The translations under genes were made by a program, and so were the position numbers. Under the pieces are notes generated by a model that did no database searches, had not been told where the DNA came from, and saw only the letters and a program-made list of their open reading frames with translations. A DNA stretch of 5,425 bases from Bacteroidota bacterium (lineage in GTDB: Bacteria > Bacteroidota > Ignavibacteria > Ignavibacteriales > Melioribacteraceae): positions 5,036 to 10,460 of the forward strand of contig JAMCSN010000262.1 in assembly GCA_023381535.1 (NCBI GenBank), given 5' to 3'. This document shows, one piece after another, positions 1 to 5,425 of the stretch; positions within the stretch are counted from its first letter, which is position 1, and each line of letters opens with the position of its first letter.

Positions 1-501
1 AAATTACAAAGTGCCTGAGGTTTTGAGAAACCGTTTGCTTGGTCTTCATGTTATAAGCGCGCTGCTCGGTTATTCTGGTATTATTATCTCGGCAGTTTAC
101 GGTGTATTGTTCTGGCTTCTTTATCGAAATTTAAAAGAGAATAAGTTCGGATTGATATTCAATAGGTTACCAAGTTTGGAAATTTTGGAAAAGCTTAGTT
201 TCTACGCGGCAGTTATTGGCTTTATACTTTTAACTCTTGCTATAGTAATTGGAATTATCTGCCTCCCGCAATTCGAGAGAGGAGGCTACCGAAAGCGTTT
301 CCGGATTTCAGTTATTTCGATCCCAAACTGACCGGGACATTATTCGTTTGGCTTGTTTACGGCGTGGGAATAACAAGCAAGTGGATTGCAAATTTGTACG
401 GAAAAAAATTCATAATTTTTTCTTTGATTGGATTTGTTGTGGCGATTGTATCATTGATAGTTACGAATTCCCTGGCTAGGACGTTTCATTCTTTCTATTA
501 A
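1..501 (+). pseudogene. ccsA: CcsA/HemX-like cytochrome c assembly membrane protein, 5'-truncated by the window and frameshifted
   Basis: The reading frame is open from position 2 and enters from upstream, so the GTG at 11 is not a real start. It encodes a CcsA/HemX-like segment with a conserved-looking GLHVISALLGYS stretch (a His in a membrane helix) and a second helix ending in LAIVIGII near 260. The family sequence then resumes in another frame at about 286 as LPKAFPDFSYFDPK, followed by helices GTLFVWLVYGVGI and FIIFSLIGFVVAIVSLIV. It ends ARTFHSFY at TAA 499-501; the His resembles the late HS(Y/F) His of CcsA. The unshifted frame stops at TGA 329-331. Removing 23 bases around 262-285 joins the frames as IGIIW-LPKAFPDF, so one insertion explains the break. 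FSYFDPK stands where typical CcsA has a Trp-rich WWD region, so this is the HemX-like kind. Established: HemX in Bacillus lowers GluTR level; CcsA acts in cytochrome c maturation. Which role applies here is not decidable. The break could be a real mutation or an assembly error. Confidence 0.8.
261..285 (+). repeat. 25-bp inverted copy of a hemA segment (insertion arm)
   Basis: These 25 bases are the exact reverse complement of 545-569 inside hemA. The copy begins GCCTCCCGCA and ends GAGAGGAGG. The match stops sharply at both ends (260 and 286 differ). The terminal G on each side could belong to the host ccsA sequence, leaving a 23-bp net insertion that shifts the ccsA frame. This arm is the derived copy, because deleting it restores a family-like protein, whereas the hemA arm encodes conserved GluTR sequence. 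Confidence 0.93.
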
Positions 502-510
502 TAGTTCAAA

Positions 511-1839
511 ATGAATTTAATAGGTATATCAATAAATCACAGAACCTCCTCTCTCGAATTGCGGGAGGCGCTGCACCTCAACCGCGATGAAATCGTTTCG
601 CTTATTCCCCGTTTGAAAGAACAGATTTTCTCCGAAGGCGTCGTCATCTCCACATGCAACCGTACCGAAATTTTGGGGTTTCCCCAAACCGAAGGCCTCG
701 GCGTAAATTCAATTATCGGTTCGCTGCTTCAGGCAAAACCGATCGATGGAATTAAGCCGGAACATTTTACAAGATTTTTTTCGTGCGGAGCAGTAAAACA
801 TTTGTTCTCTGTTGCCTCAGGTATTGATTCAATGGTCATCGGCGACAGCCAGATTCTTGGTCAAGTGAAAGAAGCTTTCGAAATTTCCGAGGATCTCGAT
901 TTTGCCGGTTCAATTTCACGAAGAATTTTTGATACGGCAATCAAGGTCGGAAAACGTTCTATAAAGGAAACAACAATCGGCGAAGGCGCTGTAACTGTAA
1001 GTTATGCCTCGGTTCAAGTCGTTGAAAAGATTTTTGCCAATCTAGAAAAAAAATCCGCGTTGGTCATTGGCGCGGGAGAATCGGGAGAACTCGCTGCTAT
1101 TCACTTGCGCGACAAAGGTGTTGGCAAAATTACTATATCAAACCGTACGATTGAGCGCGCTGAAACCCTTGCCGATAAAGTACACGGCGAGATTGTTCCG
1201 TTCCAATTCCTAAAAGAACATCTGCACAATTTCGATATAATAATCAGCGCAACAAGTTCAAACGAACTTATAATTCACGCCGACGAGATTAAAACTGCAA
1301 TGAAGAAACGAAAAGGAACACCGGTTGTTCTGATGGACATTGCTGTTCCGCGCGATATAGACCCGGATGTTCGCAAAATCGATAATGTGTTTTATCACGA
1401 TATGGATTCGCTAAAAATTATTGTCGATCAGAACATGCAGAAACGGAAAGAACAAATTCCGCTTGTAGAAAAAATTGTTATGGAAGAATTGGTTGGATTT
1501 TTCAACTGGTACAACACGCTGGATGTAGTACCGACTATAAAATCGATCCGCAGCTTTTTCGAAGAGATCAGATTAGATGAGCTGGAAAAAATTAAAAATA
1601 AAGTAAGCGATGAAGATTTTACAAAGATTGAAGATATGACACGCCGCATGGTAGGACGACTGCTGCATAACCCGACGGTTAAGCTGAGAGGTTTTGCCGA
1701 ATCGGGCGCAAACATAAAAGAGGTTTTAACAAACACATTGATATTGAAAGGACTTTTCAATCTTGACGATTTTCCTACCAACGGTAAGAGCGGCTCTGAG
1801 GAAAATCATAATTCAGAAGGCAATGATGAAAAAAAATAA
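511..1839 (+). CDS. hemA: Glutamyl-tRNA reductase
   Basis: HemA reduces the glutamate of charged tRNA-Glu with NADPH to glutamate-1-semialdehyde, the first committed step of C5-pathway tetrapyrrole synthesis in the cytosol. At 442 residues it has the family layout. The N-terminal catalytic domain carries NHRTSSLELREAL (9-21) and ISTCNRTEI (46-54) with nucleophile Cys49, then HLFSVASGIDSMVIGDSQILGQVK (97-120; GDSQ where many members have GEPQ). The NADPH-binding domain has VIGAGESGELA (185-195) and PVVLMDIAVPRDID (271-284). A helical dimerisation region follows to about 415, with RRMVGRLLHNPTVKLR (378-393). The last 20 or so residues are a polar, Glu/Asn-rich tail that overlaps the hemC start. 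The ATG at 511 gives the expected N-terminus and lies 9 nt after the native ccsA stop. No Shine-Dalgarno is visible, which suggests coupling to ccsA translation. Codons 12-20 are the source of the inverted copy in ccsA. Confidence 0.97.
   Translation: MNLIGISINHRTSSLELREALHLNRDEIVSLIPRLKEQIFSEGVVISTCNRTEILGFPQTEGLGVNSIIGSLLQAKPIDGIKPEHFTRFFSCGAVKHLFSVASGIDSMVIGDSQILGQVKEAFEISEDLDFAGSISRRIFDTAIKVGKRSIKETTIGEGAVTVSYASVQVVEKIFANLEKKSALVIGAGESGELAAIHLRDKGVGKITISNRTIERAETLADKVHGEIVPFQFLKEHLHNFDIIISATSSNELIIHADEIKTAMKKRKGTPVVLMDIAVPRDIDPDVRKIDNVFYHDMDSLKIIVDQNMQKRKEQIPLVEKIVMEELVGFFNWYNTLDVVPTIKSIRSFFEEIRLDELEKIKNKVSDEDFTKIEDMTRRMVGRLLHNPTVKLRGFAESGANIKEVLTNTLILKGLFNLDDFPTNGKSGSEENHNSEGNDEKK
545..569 (+). 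repeat. hemA arm (source) of the 25-bp inverted repeat
   Basis: This is the source copy of the perfect 25-bp inverted repeat whose partner is 261-285; the two arms are separated by 259 bases. It encodes residues 12-20 (TSSLELREA), part of the conserved N-terminal GluTR motif, so it is the ancestral arm. Confidence 0.93.
1815..1820 (+). promoter_or_regulatory. Ribosome binding site deciding the hemC start
   Basis: AGAAGG lies inside the hemA tail. It is 5 nt before the ATG at 1826 and only 2 nt before the in-frame ATG at 1823, so 1826 is the better start. Confidence 0.6.
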
Positions 1840-2770
1840 GCTTGTTATCGGTTCACGCGGAAGCGAGCTTGCACTTTGGCAAGCAAAATTTGTAAAGAAA
1901 GAATTGGAACGAAAGAACAAAAATCTTTCCGTCGAAATAAAAATTATTAATACGAAGGGAGATAAAATTTTAGACGTTGCGCTTTCCAAGATTGGCGACA
2001 AGGGATTGTTCACCAAGGAACTTGAGAACGAACTATTGAAAGGTTCGATTGACATTGCCGTTCACAGCTTGAAGGATTTGCAAACGGAACTTCCCAAAGG
2101 ATTGAAACTTGCCGCAGTAACAAAACGTCATCCGGTTGAAGATGTTTTGATTGCCCGCAAGAAAGGAATGACGCTTAAAGATCTACCGGAAGGCGCTGTC
2201 GTTGCAACCGGATCGCTTCGCCGCCGTTCTCAACTTCTTCATTTTCGCCCCGACATAAAAATTGAAGAACTCCGCGGCAATGTTCCAACTCGAATCAAAA
2301 AGTTTTTGGAATCGAAGTGGGATGCAATAATCTTAGCACGCGCCGGAGTTGAGCGATTAAAAATGAATAAAAATATTTCTTCCATTATAAAAGTGGATGA
2401 AATTCTTCCAGCTGTTGGACAAGGCGCTTTGGGAATCGAGATTTGTTTGGATAATAAATTGGCGGACAAAGTTTTAAAATCGATTCATCACGATGCTACT
2501 TATAAAGCAGTTCTCGCGGAACGAGCATTGTTGAAAGCTCTTGAAGGCGGTTGTCAAGTTCCGATCGGCGCGTACGCTCAAGTGAAACCGGCTGGCTTAT
2601 TTCTCGATGCTGTGGTTGGCTCAATTGACGGTTCAGTAACATTTAGAAAAAAAATCCGCGGCTCTAAAAATAACCCTGAAAAAATTGGACAGAAGCTTGC
2701 GAAGGATTTACTGAAAGCCGGCGCTTCGGACGTATTAAATGAAATCTATAAAAGCACACGAGCAAATTGA
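1826..2770 (+). CDS. hemC: Hydroxymethylbilane synthase (porphobilinogen deaminase)
   Basis: HemC polymerises four porphobilinogen molecules into hydroxymethylbilane on a covalently bound dipyrromethane cofactor. The 314-residue protein starts KLVIGSRGSELALWQAK, typical of the family. It has the catalytic Asp in VHSLKD at residue 84 and the Arg-rich substrate/cofactor-binding GSLRRRSQL around 130-138. It also has LRGNVPTRIKK, LPAVGQGALGIE, and the cofactor-anchoring Cys243 in EGGCQVPIGAYA; E. coli uses Asp84 and Cys242. The start was chosen from SD spacing; ATG 1823 would add one Met, and earlier in-frame TTG starts would add unrelated residues. The gene overlaps hemA by 14 nt and its TGA overlaps the hemD TTG start, so translation is probably coupled. 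An 8-base A run (1829-1836) follows the start codon. The protein looks intact. Confidence 0.97.
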   Translation: MKKNKLVIGSRGSELALWQAKFVKKELERKNKNLSVEIKIINTKGDKILDVALSKIGDKGLFTKELENELLKGSIDIAVHSLKDLQTELPKGLKLAAVTKRHPVEDVLIARKKGMTLKDLPEGAVVATGSLRRRSQLLHFRPDIKIEELRGNVPTRIKKFLESKWDAIILARAGVERLKMNKNISSIIKVDEILPAVGQGALGIEICLDNKLADKVLKSIHHDATYKAVLAERALLKALEGGCQVPIGAYAQVKPAGLFLDAVVGSIDGSVTFRKKIRGSKNNPEKIGQKLAKDLLKAGASDVLNEIYKSTRAN

Positions 2771-3555
2771 ATTCATTATTAAAAAATAAAACCATCTTAG
2801 TTACTAAGAGTAAGGAAGAAGCTTTTAAGTCTGTTTCTATATTAGCTGATCATGGCGCTGAGCTCATTTTTTTTCCGACAATAAAGGTCGTACCGATTTT
2901 TAATTCGCCGGAATTGGACGAAGCAATTAAGATGTTTAATAATTTTGATTATCTGGTTTTCACTTCATCAAATGCTGTTGAGGTATTTGCAGAGATTATG
3001 CAACGATACAGATTAAACTTATCAAAAGTAAAAATTGCGGCTGTGGGGAAAAGCACCGCTGATGAATGTGAATCATTCGGATTAACCGTAACGATTTTAC
3101 CGGACGAATTCAGTGCAAGTGGACTAGTCAAAAAGTTTTCTGAGATAGACTTAAAAAATAAAAAGATTTTCATTCCAGGATCTTCCTTATCACGAGGTGA
3201 ATTGAACATGGGCTTGTCGGAACTGGGCGCCCAAGTTTTCTCTGTTCCGGTTTACGATGTTGTTCAGAATGAATTGAGCGATTTGAAAAATGAGCACAAG
3301 CAAATACAAAAGAAACATCCGAATGTTTTTGTTTTCACCAGTCCTTCCGCTTTTAGCAACTTTTTAACATTGATGAACGTTACCGATCCGGATAAATTCT
3401 TTGATGCACATATCATTTGTGCAATCGGCACAACAACAGAAAACGCAATTAGAAAGAAAGGTTTGACGGTGCATATAGTGCCGGATACGTTTTCCCTTAA
3501 CGGAGTATCGGAAGCTATCATTAAATATTTTCAAGTTACGGCAAACGTGGCTTAA
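2767..3555 (+). CDS. hemD: Uroporphyrinogen-III synthase
   Basis: HemD cyclises hydroxymethylbilane with inversion of ring D to give uroporphyrinogen III. The family is poorly conserved in sequence, but the two-lobed pattern is visible in these 262 residues. There is an N-terminal ILVTKSKEEA strand-loop and VFTSSNAVEVF (64-74). Next come AAVGKSTADECESFGLTV (91-108) and IPGSSLSRGELNMGLSELGAQVFSVPVYDVV (136-166). The second lobe has VFVFTSPSAFSNFL (187-200), ICAIGTTTENAIRKKGLTVHIVPD (217-240) and a final SLNGVSEAIIKYF helix. The start is TTG at 2767, overlapping the hemC TGA as TTGA. This is the only usual start codon after the in-frame stops at about 2740-2751 that keeps the first strand. The neighbours hemC and hemE confirm the assignment, which sequence alone would support less strongly. 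Confidence 0.93.
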   Translation: MNSLLKNKTILVTKSKEEAFKSVSILADHGAELIFFPTIKVVPIFNSPELDEAIKMFNNFDYLVFTSSNAVEVFAEIMQRYRLNLSKVKIAAVGKSTADECESFGLTVTILPDEFSASGLVKKFSEIDLKNKKIFIPGSSLSRGELNMGLSELGAQVFSVPVYDVVQNELSDLKNEHKQIQKKHPNVFVFTSPSAFSNFLTLMNVTDPDKFFDAHIICAIGTTTENAIRKKGLTVHIVPDTFSLNGVSEAIIKYFQVTANVA

Positions 3556-3557
3556 AC

Positions 3558-3561
3558 GGAG
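3558..3561 (+). promoter_or_regulatory. Ribosome binding site supporting the TTG start of hemE
   Basis: GGAG just after the hemD stop is 5 nt upstream of TTG 3567. This supports a TTG start; the encoded TKFQNDLFLRACKRQPVERTP is the normal UroD N-terminus. Confidence 0.65.
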
Positions 3562-3566
3562 AACAA

Positions 3567-4640
3567 TTGACAAAATTTCAAAACGATTTATTTCTTAGAG
3601 CATGCAAACGGCAACCGGTTGAGCGAACACCGATTTGGATTATGCGCCAAGCCGGAAGATTTTTACCTGAGTATCGCGCTGTTCGTGAAAAGGCAGATTT
3701 CCTAACGATGTGTAAGACACCGGAACTCGCCGCAGAAGTTACGATTCAACCGGTTGATATTATCGGCGTAGACGCAGCAATTATTTTTTCCGATATACTT
3801 GTTATCCCGGAAGCGATGGGAATGAAATTGGAAATGATTGAAAGCAAAGGTCCTAAGTTTTACGACCCGATAAGAACCGTAGATGATGTTAATAAGCTTA
3901 AAGATATTGACCCGACTAAAAATTTGAAGTTTGTTCTTGATGCAGTATCACTTACGAAAAAGGAATTGAACGGACGCGTTCCGTTAATCGGATTCGCCGG
4001 TTCGCCTTGGACGCTGATGACGTACATGGTTGAAGGCAGCGGTTCGAAAAATTTTTCTGAGATTAAGAAATTCATTTATAACCAACCCACTGCTGCTCAC
4101 AAACTTTTAGAAAGAATTTCTGATGCTGTTGCAGATTATCTTTCTGCTAAGATTGAAGCCGGCGCCAATGCGGTACAGATTTTTGATACTTGGGGCGGTT
4201 TGCTTTCGCAAACAGACTTTGAAGAATTTTCTTTACGTTATATTCAAAAAATAATTTCGCAGATTAAACGTAAGGATGAGCCGGTGATAGTTTTTGCAAA
4301 AGGAGTTCATTACAAGCTAGATAAGATTGCGGAAGCCGGCGCTGATGTGATTGGTCTTGATTGGACAATTGATTTGAATGCCGCAAGAAAATCGGTTGGC
4401 GATAAAGTTGCTCTGCAAGGTAATCTTGACCCAACAGTTCTTTATGCGAACAAGAAAAAGATTAAAGAAGAAGCCGTAAAAGTTTTGGAATCTTTCGGAA
4501 AAGGTTCCGGACACATTTTCAATCTCGGGCACGGAATATTGCCGGATGTAACTCCCGAAAATGCAAAACATCTCGTCGAAATCATAAAAGATTATAGTAA
4601 AGCTTTTCACCGCGGAGACGCAGAGTCACAGAGAAAATGA
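3567..4640 (+). CDS. hemE: Uroporphyrinogen decarboxylase with a repeat-encoded C-terminal tail
   Basis: HemE removes the four acetate carboxyls of uroporphyrinogen III to make coproporphyrinogen III, committing flux to heme rather than siroheme. The 357-residue protein has all the family landmarks: TPIWIMRQAGRFLPEYR (21-37, substrate-binding Arg27 and Arg31), IFSDIL (73-78, Asp76), GFAGSPWTLMTYMVEG (142-157, Tyr153), IFDTWGG (205-211), LQGNLDP (283-289) and NLGHGILPDVTPEN (319-332, His322). These match the human UROD residues Asp86, Tyr164 and His339. TTG 3567 is 11 nt after the hemD stop. The native end appears to be about IIKDYSKA. The last 11 residues, FHRGDAESQRK (347-357), are translated from the left arm of the downstream cassette. 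The stop TGA overlaps the next gene's ATG. All active-site residues precede the altered tail, so activity is probably kept; that is inference. Confidence 0.97.
   Translation: MTKFQNDLFLRACKRQPVERTPIWIMRQAGRFLPEYRAVREKADFLTMCKTPELAAEVTIQPVDIIGVDAAIIFSDILVIPEAMGMKLEMIESKGPKFYDPIRTVDDVNKLKDIDPTKNLKFVLDAVSLTKKELNGRVPLIGFAGSPWTLMTYMVEGSGSKNFSEIKKFIYNQPTAAHKLLERISDAVADYLSAKIEAGANAVQIFDTWGGLLSQTDFEEFSLRYIQKIISQIKRKDEPVIVFAKGVHYKLDKIAEAGADVIGLDWTIDLNAARKSVGDKVALQGNLDPTVLYANKKKIKEEAVKVLESFGKGSGHIFNLGHGILPDVTPENAKHLVEIIKDYSKAFHRGDAESQRK
4605..4634 (+). repeat. Left inverted arm of the cassette, three 8-nt units
   Basis: TTTCAC is followed by CGCGGAGA (4611-4618), CGCAGAGT (4619-4626) and CACAGAGA (4627-4634), variants of CGCRRAGW. 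The arm is read in frame as the HemE C-terminus and ends 2 nt before the ATG of the cassette gene. Confidence 0.85.
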
Positions 4641-5023
4641 ATAACGATGAATTAAATAAAGTTAGCGGGATAATTTTGGATTCAGCTATTGAGGTGCATA
4701 AACAATTAGGCCCGGGATTATTGGAAAGCGTCTATGAAGTCTGTTTGTTCAAAGAATTGAAAGCAAGAAATTTATTCGTCGAAAGACAAGTACCTGTAAA
4801 TGTTGTTTACAAAGGAGAAAGCCTTGACATTGATTTCAGAATCGACTTACTAGTTGAACACGAAATAATTATCGAACTAAAAGCGGTCGAGATCATTTTA
4901 CCAGTACATGAGGCGCAAATACTGACTTATCTTAAACTCGCGGAAAAGCGTCTTGGCTTATTAATTAATTTCAATGTACCAAAGTTAGTAGATGGATTTC
5001 GTAGAAAAGTTATGAATTTTTAA
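4637..5023 (+). CDS. GxxExxY-family protein, PD-(D/E)XK nuclease-like
   Basis: This small 128-residue protein has the family signature LGPGLLESVYE (24-34; Gly27, Glu30, Tyr33). After it come FRIDLLV with Asp70 and IIELKAVE with Glu80 and Lys82, which together fit a PD-(D/E)XK nuclease core, then HEAQILTYLKL (91-101) and GLLINFNV (107-114), usual for the family. The length is full for the family, and there is no signal peptide or membrane segment, so it is probably cytosolic. The family's function is unknown; nuclease activity is inferred from the motif only. The ATG at 4637 overlaps the hemE stop as ATGA, so it may be translated by re-initiation. The arms leave no room for its own promoter, so it must depend on heme-operon transcription. 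It is in the same orientation as its hosts. I see no reason to link it to heme synthesis; it is most likely a passenger. Confidence 0.93.
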   Translation: MNNDELNKVSGIILDSAIEVHKQLGPGLLESVYEVCLFKELKARNLFVERQVPVNVVYKGESLDIDFRIDLLVEHEIIIELKAVEIILPVHEAQILTYLKLAEKRLGLLINFNVPKLVDGFRRKVMNF

Positions 5024-5053
5024 TCTTTGCGTCTCTGCGACTTTGCGGTGAAA
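5024..5053 (+). repeat. Right inverted arm of the cassette, three 8-nt units
   Basis: Read on the minus strand it is TTTCAC, then CGCAAAGT (5047-5040), CGCAGAGA (5039-5032) and CGCAAAGA (5031-5024). It starts on the base after the cassette gene's stop. It pairs with the left arm at 24 of 30 positions and ends before the hemN ribosome site. Confidence 0.85.
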
Positions 5054-5058
5054 GAAAT

Positions 5059-5062
5059 GAGG
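5059..5062 (+). promoter_or_regulatory. Ribosome binding site of hemN
   Basis: GAGG sits 5 nt before ATG 5068 and just outside the cassette right arm, so hemN kept its own translation signal after the insertion. Confidence 0.65.
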
Positions 5063-5067
5063 TTTTT

Positions 5068-5425
5068 ATGTTTAACATAGATTTAGATTTAATCAAAAAG
5101 TATGACAAACCGGGTCCGCGGTACACAAGTTACCCGACGGCGCCGCATTTTAACGAATCGTTTACATCGGAAAAATATTTGGACGAAATCATCCGCACGA
5201 ATAATGAAACCAATCCGCCGGATCTCTCGCTCTACTATCACCTTCCCTTTTGTGATACGCTCTGTTATTTCTGCGGCTGCAACATGATCATCACGCGCAA
5301 TCGCGACCGAATTAAAGATTACATCAAATATTTGAAGAACGAAATTGATTTGCTTCGAACGTTTATTGTTCCTAACCGGAAAGTTGTGCAGCTCCATTGG
5401 GGCGGCGGGACACCGACTCATCTCG
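5068..5425 (+). CDS. hemN: Oxygen-independent coproporphyrinogen III oxidase, N-terminal part (cut by window end)
   Basis: HemN is a radical-SAM enzyme that oxidatively decarboxylates two propionates of coproporphyrinogen III to give protoporphyrinogen IX without oxygen. The visible 119 residues begin with IKKYDKPGPRYTSYPTAPHF, a HemN hallmark that distinguishes it from HemW-type relatives. They continue with YYHLPFCDTLCYFCGCN, holding the [4Fe-4S] ligands Cys62, Cys66 and Cys69 plus Cys71, the same numbering as E. coli HemN. LHWGGGTPT (109-117) is the SAM-binding Gly-rich motif. The ATG at 5068 has a GAGG ribosome site 5 nt upstream and gives the usual N-terminus. Having HemN in the operon suggests heme synthesis under anoxic or low-oxygen conditions. 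No defect is visible in this part. Confidence 0.97.
   Translation, partial: MFNIDLDLIKKYDKPGPRYTSYPTAPHFNESFTSEKYLDEIIRTNNETNPPDLSLYYHLPFCDTLCYFCGCNMIITRNRDRIKDYIKYLKNEIDLLRTFIVPNRKVVQLHWGGGTPTHL

Follow-up and report, generated by a model that had tools for sequence, protein, structure and literature searches.

A 23-base inverted copy of hemA within the neighbouring hemX-like gene of an uncultivated bacterium, probably left by a recent template switch

How did a short piece of hemA come to lie, in inverted orientation, inside the gene upstream of it, and was it placed there in a cell or during the production of the sequence? The DNA that raises this question, which we call the window, is a stretch of 5,425 nucleotides from a Bacteroidota contig (JAMCSN010000262.1). 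It holds a heme-biosynthesis gene cluster led by a hemX/ccsA-like gene that is truncated at the window edge. An earlier note, made from the sequence alone, had pointed out that positions 261-285 are the exact reverse complement of positions 545-569, and a repeat search confirms this (25 of 25 bases, with a spacer of 259 bases). Our main reference for comparison is L001, a near-identical MAG contig (JAJYMU010000352.1; 13,626 bases). The features needed for the argument are as follows.

2..331, plus strand: broken HemX/CcsA-like ORF, open at the window edge (PF01578, E 4.8e-15), with a premature stop at 329-331
261..283, minus strand: 23-base insertion, an inverted copy of hemA 547-569, the sole indel relative to L001 across window positions 1-4601
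284..291, plus strand: point at which the parental sequence resumes (GGCTACCG in the window, GGCTCCCG in L001)
284..501, plus strand: disconnected 3' part of the hemX-like gene
511..1839, plus strand: hemA, glutamyl-tRNA reductase, intact (TIGR01035, 394.1 bits against a cut-off of 209.55)
545..569, plus strand: donor, within hemA codons 12-20 (N terminus of GluTR), exact reverse complement of 261-285
4637-5023: gene for a GxxExxY protein, after hemE and before hemN
5058-5425: hemN, start only

The ORFs that follow hemA are presumably hemC, hemD and hemE, names that we assigned by eye. As for the leading gene, the intact protein encoded by L001 scores 99.2 bits against the CcsB model (TIGR03144), below the cut-off of 187.6. 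As expected of a HemX, it belongs to PF01578 and its gene adjoins hemA in a heme gene cluster, and several orthologues among the 120 listed of 1,310 homologues (see below) carry the JGI name HemX protein. It resembles the HemX described in PMC5801465, a PF01578 membrane protein encoded in the heme operon, except that its gene lies upstream of hemA in the window and downstream of it in the S. aureus and B. subtilis operons. A plasmid collection gave no match to the window.

The 25-base match is too long to be fortuitous, as the earlier note had argued. By analytic estimate, about 3e-8 such matches are expected by chance in the window. Counting non-overlapping arms, the longest exact inverted repeat did not exceed 16 nt in any of 200 mononucleotide-shuffled versions of the window, or 17 nt across L001-L015, the 15 loci found by a hemA protein search, while in L001 itself it is 11 nt in 5.5 kb. 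A chance origin was rejected on these grounds. In the L001 genome, which may be incomplete, the 25-mer occurs once at ≤3 mismatches, in hemA, and no other donor for the insert was found there at that threshold. The region around the donor (window 530-600) is identical in L001.

The two contigs are 98.8% identical over 4,601 aligned columns, and their global alignment establishes, at the level of sequence, both the structure of the insertion and its derived state. L001 lacks exactly 23 bases at the repeat, the alignment has no further indel as far as window base 4601, and no parental base was lost at the insertion site (by reading, placing the insert at 262-284 is equivalent to placing it at 261-283). 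The hemX/ccsA-like gene of L001 is one intact ORF of 274 aa, whereas its window counterpart stops early, at the end of ORF 2-331, so that the frame of the upstream gene is broken, as had been proposed. Since the L001 gene is uninterrupted and differs by a single 23-base insertion, one and the same event produced the insertion and the frameshift, with hemA as the donor, which upholds the earlier note on both points.

The insertion was seen in one contig only, that of the window, whose protein is P0001 in our searches. Thirteen of the 15 loci cover the insertion site, the count leaving out L004, which begins within the gene and aligned over 27 residues, and L015, which gave no match. The hemX/ccsA-like gene is uninterrupted in all 13 (L001 at the DNA level, the 12 others at the protein level). 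A search with the L001 gene returned 1,310 matches, and the site is unbroken in each of the 120 that were listed, 117 of them recognized by the pattern W-[LIVM]-P-x-[AS]-[FYW] and three by eye; in P0026, P0035 and P0087, T replaces A in the site motif. The four listed clusters at 97-100% identity to L001, P0019-P0022, are intact as represented and stand for 6, 5, 1 and 1 contigs, respectively, 13 contigs that may overlap one another and do not amount to as many independent genomes. A broken product of full length would, by our estimate, have ~225 aa and a score within the listed range, and no protein of that length is among the 120. An old, shared insertion was therefore rejected within the scope of these searches, the insertion being absent from all 13 covering loci and all 120 listed homologues. 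The comparison with relatives that the earlier note had advised thus gives nothing to suggest an old or fixed change.

A search with the broken ORF, limited to short-protein candidates, gave 18 matches: P0001, which is the window's own, and 17 others. Thirteen of the latter have the site motif and four lack it. Among those four, P0014 ends ahead of the site and P0018 is a distant match (39% identity). P0013 and P0017, short HemX-like proteins from metagenome contigs, seem to leave the frame at or before the same region, judging from protein letters only. Breaks in hemX-like genes may thus not be unique to the window.

The disconnected 3' part of the gene bears no sign of long decay or age. It differs from L001 at 4 of 218 bases, with none in the 260 bases upstream; three of the four differences are synonymous (one of them at 288), and the fourth changes A to V, a V that is also present at this residue in L007. 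This leaves no case for accelerated decay, and the insertion looks young. In the genes that follow, differences are also few: HemA differs from its L001 counterpart at 2 residues, and hemA, hemC and hemD together show 11 synonymous and 2 nonsynonymous codons. In hemE, 7 codons differ synonymously and 6 nonsynonymously, almost all of them within two clusters (3615-3647 and 4560-4595) that we tentatively read as recombination. In the 5' part of hemE, the 52 bases at 3596-3647 hold 7 substitutions, which affect 6 codons, 5 synonymously.

The two contigs also differ in what lies between hemE and hemN. The window carries the GxxExxY gene in this slot (4602-5057) and the L001 contig a 23S_rRNA_IVP (PF05635) gene (L018:7961-8311, minus strand), and both continue with hemN beyond it. 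The GxxExxY gene is flanked by a 30-base inverted repeat (4605-4634 and 5024-5053; 80%), and a search of the L001 genome at ≤3 mismatches gave no match to the first 21 bases of the repeat's left arm. Divergence from L001 is ~0.5% before position 4562 (24 substitutions) and rises beside the slot, with 9 substitutions at 4562-4595 and 16 in the 368 bases of the hemN start (5058-5425). It looks as if the slot had come with its flanks by recombination.

The junctions of the insertion point to how it may have formed. The insert measures 23 bases and the donor match 25, leaving a total of 2 nt of junction microhomology, which can be read as two shared bases at the right (GG) or as one on each side. 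In addition, the parental site (GGCTCCCG in L001) and the start of the donor copy (GCCTCCCG, at 261-268) match in register at 7 of 8 bases, i.e., an imperfect inverted repeat already existed at the site, albeit a short one in a register chosen post hoc. A match at least this good has a frequency of 8e-4 in a given register (400,000 random position pairs), a figure that overstates the true weight because the register was spotted afterwards. The template switch invoked by the earlier note is therefore supported, while its description of the junctions, with about 1 nt of microhomology (G) at each, has to be amended to 2 nt in total plus the 7-of-8 parental match. The one base that the insertion leaves over, C to A at 288, by eye leaves Leu unchanged in the intact frame (CTC/CTA) and may simply be strain variation.

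In our view, the insertion probably arose by a recent template switch in one lineage of a bacterium that, to judge from its nearest relatives, is of the Ignavibacteria type. During copying of the upstream gene, the nascent strand would have quit its template at GG (L001 906-907), taken 23 bases from the opposite strand of hemA, ~260 bases away, and returned to the same place, steered by the existing 7-of-8 match between the site and the donor end. The outcome would be a pure 23-base inverted insertion, by which the imperfect inverted repeat of 8 bp becomes a perfect one of 25 bp and the hemX-like gene is broken. The locus has sequence features of such events in the four-point model: a nearby reverse-complement copy (25/25), a known ancestral state and a return to the original template. 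A single event of this kind explains the difference between the window and L001 at the site, with only the synonymous change at 288 left over. That the event took place in a cell, and in which direction it was copied, we infer. During minus-strand synthesis, hemA would already have been copied and the nascent strand could fold back to serve as template, whereas plus-strand synthesis would need a switch to another strand bearing hemA, e.g., the other parental strand. Minus-strand copying is slightly favoured because of this fold-back, because the return point requires no re-opening of finished duplex and because it accounts for the donor base at 262 as a mismatch that was tolerated.

The main rival to a real mutation is a chimeric library molecule, formed in vitro when a strand folded back in end repair, PCR or whole-genome amplification, and then incorporated into a contig of low coverage. 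We hold this to be unlikely, though a serious contender. The insertion is present in one contig only and lies ~260 bases from what appears to be the contig edge (P0001 has no start codon, in a contig of 10,460 bases), both of which count against a real mutation. The same is true of the conservation of the gene elsewhere, since a rare error would likewise give a private break, and of hemE, which appears less clean than its neighbours. Moreover, the coverage of the L001 contig is given as 1.19, so low-coverage contigs do exist for this organism. For human samples, PMC10908179 describes chimeras from library preparation in which a strand becomes joined, at inverted-repeat matches, to the inverted complement of itself, and the left junction, at a 7-of-8 inverted match, fits the pattern reported there. 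However, the model in that paper, as we interpret it, yields reads that continue into the inverted strand, whereas here the sequence returns within 23 bases and no parental sequence is lost. The contig otherwise looks clean, with no other indel up to 4601 and mostly synonymous differences in hemA, hemC and hemD, which speaks for a mutation rather than a chimera.

An assembler misjoin at an inverted repeat is a different matter, and we regard it as extremely unlikely. Inverted repeats are generally known to be able to confuse assemblers. However, L001 lacks the repeat, its longest exact inverted repeat being 11 nt, and the junctions have just 1-2 bases in common with the parental sequence, much less than any k-mer overlap. 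An assembler needs reads that contain junctions of 1-2 bases in order to produce them, and a read carrying these junctions must therefore exist. The earlier note had held that a read chimera or a misassembly would look the same as a mutation; this caution stands for the chimera, whereas the small number of bases shared between the junctions and their targets makes plain misassembly unlikely.

Could the insertion instead be an old or selected regulatory change, in which the 261-285 arm forms a stem with the hemA mRNA and controls hemA? The predicted long-range stem is strong (z -3.68), and the predicted mean unpaired probability of hemA codons 12-20 falls from 0.415 in L001 to 0.006 in the window. 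Predicted accessibility near the hemA start is, however, scarcely altered (0.285, versus 0.301 in L001). Against any such age or selection stand also the absence of the insertion from every covering locus and listed homologue and the few, mostly synonymous differences in the 3' part. We find a regulatory origin scarcely credible. A functional hairpin was rejected as well: the stem is predicted, yet the start region of hemA is about as open as in L001. According to PMC5801465, heme-proficient S. aureus contains more HemA (GtrR) when HemX is lost, and the paper also cites B. subtilis as a species in which HemX affects GtrR. One might picture a single long-range switch in a natural population that at once removed a negative regulator of HemA and gave the shared operon mRNA a 25-bp arm antisense to hemA, a cis-acting RNA element made in one step. 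We put this forward as a very unlikely outcome.

If the template switch is real, the locus offers a clean, polarised, out-and-back event in an uncultivated bacterium, in which the ancestral state, the donor and the junctions can be read from the sequence, and in which one event knocks out a gene and leaves a perfect inverted repeat beside its neighbour. Should it be an artefact, the lesson is that a templated inversion seen once only among metagenome contigs calls for support from reads.

Classical quasipalindrome sites are short hairpins that undergo small changes. In E. coli, quasipalindrome-associated template switching perfects an imperfect inverted repeat from its other arm, with the nascent strand as template (PMC7202029). 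The window event resembles such switching with a long loop: here too an imperfect inverted repeat is made perfect by copying the other arm, but the starting match is only 8 bp (7/8), the loop is ~260 bases and 23 bases are gained. The out-and-back copying of a reverse-complement fragment is likewise the essence of the four-point model of short-range template switches, applied to great apes in PMC7954356, where the copied length has a median of 12 and a maximum of 128 and 65.0% of the events lengthen the sequence. That survey, as described, searched a cluster region ±100 nt; the ~260 bases spanned here exceed this range, in a bacterial host, and the switch, if real, had a longer reach than the survey's short-range window. 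The idea that a single template switch can give rise to a perfectly paired RNA hairpin stem has already been published (PMC8794818), for RNA genes, whereas the arms in the window lie ~260 bases apart in two protein-coding genes of one cluster. The class of mutation is thus already known, and the insertion is a clear new example of it.
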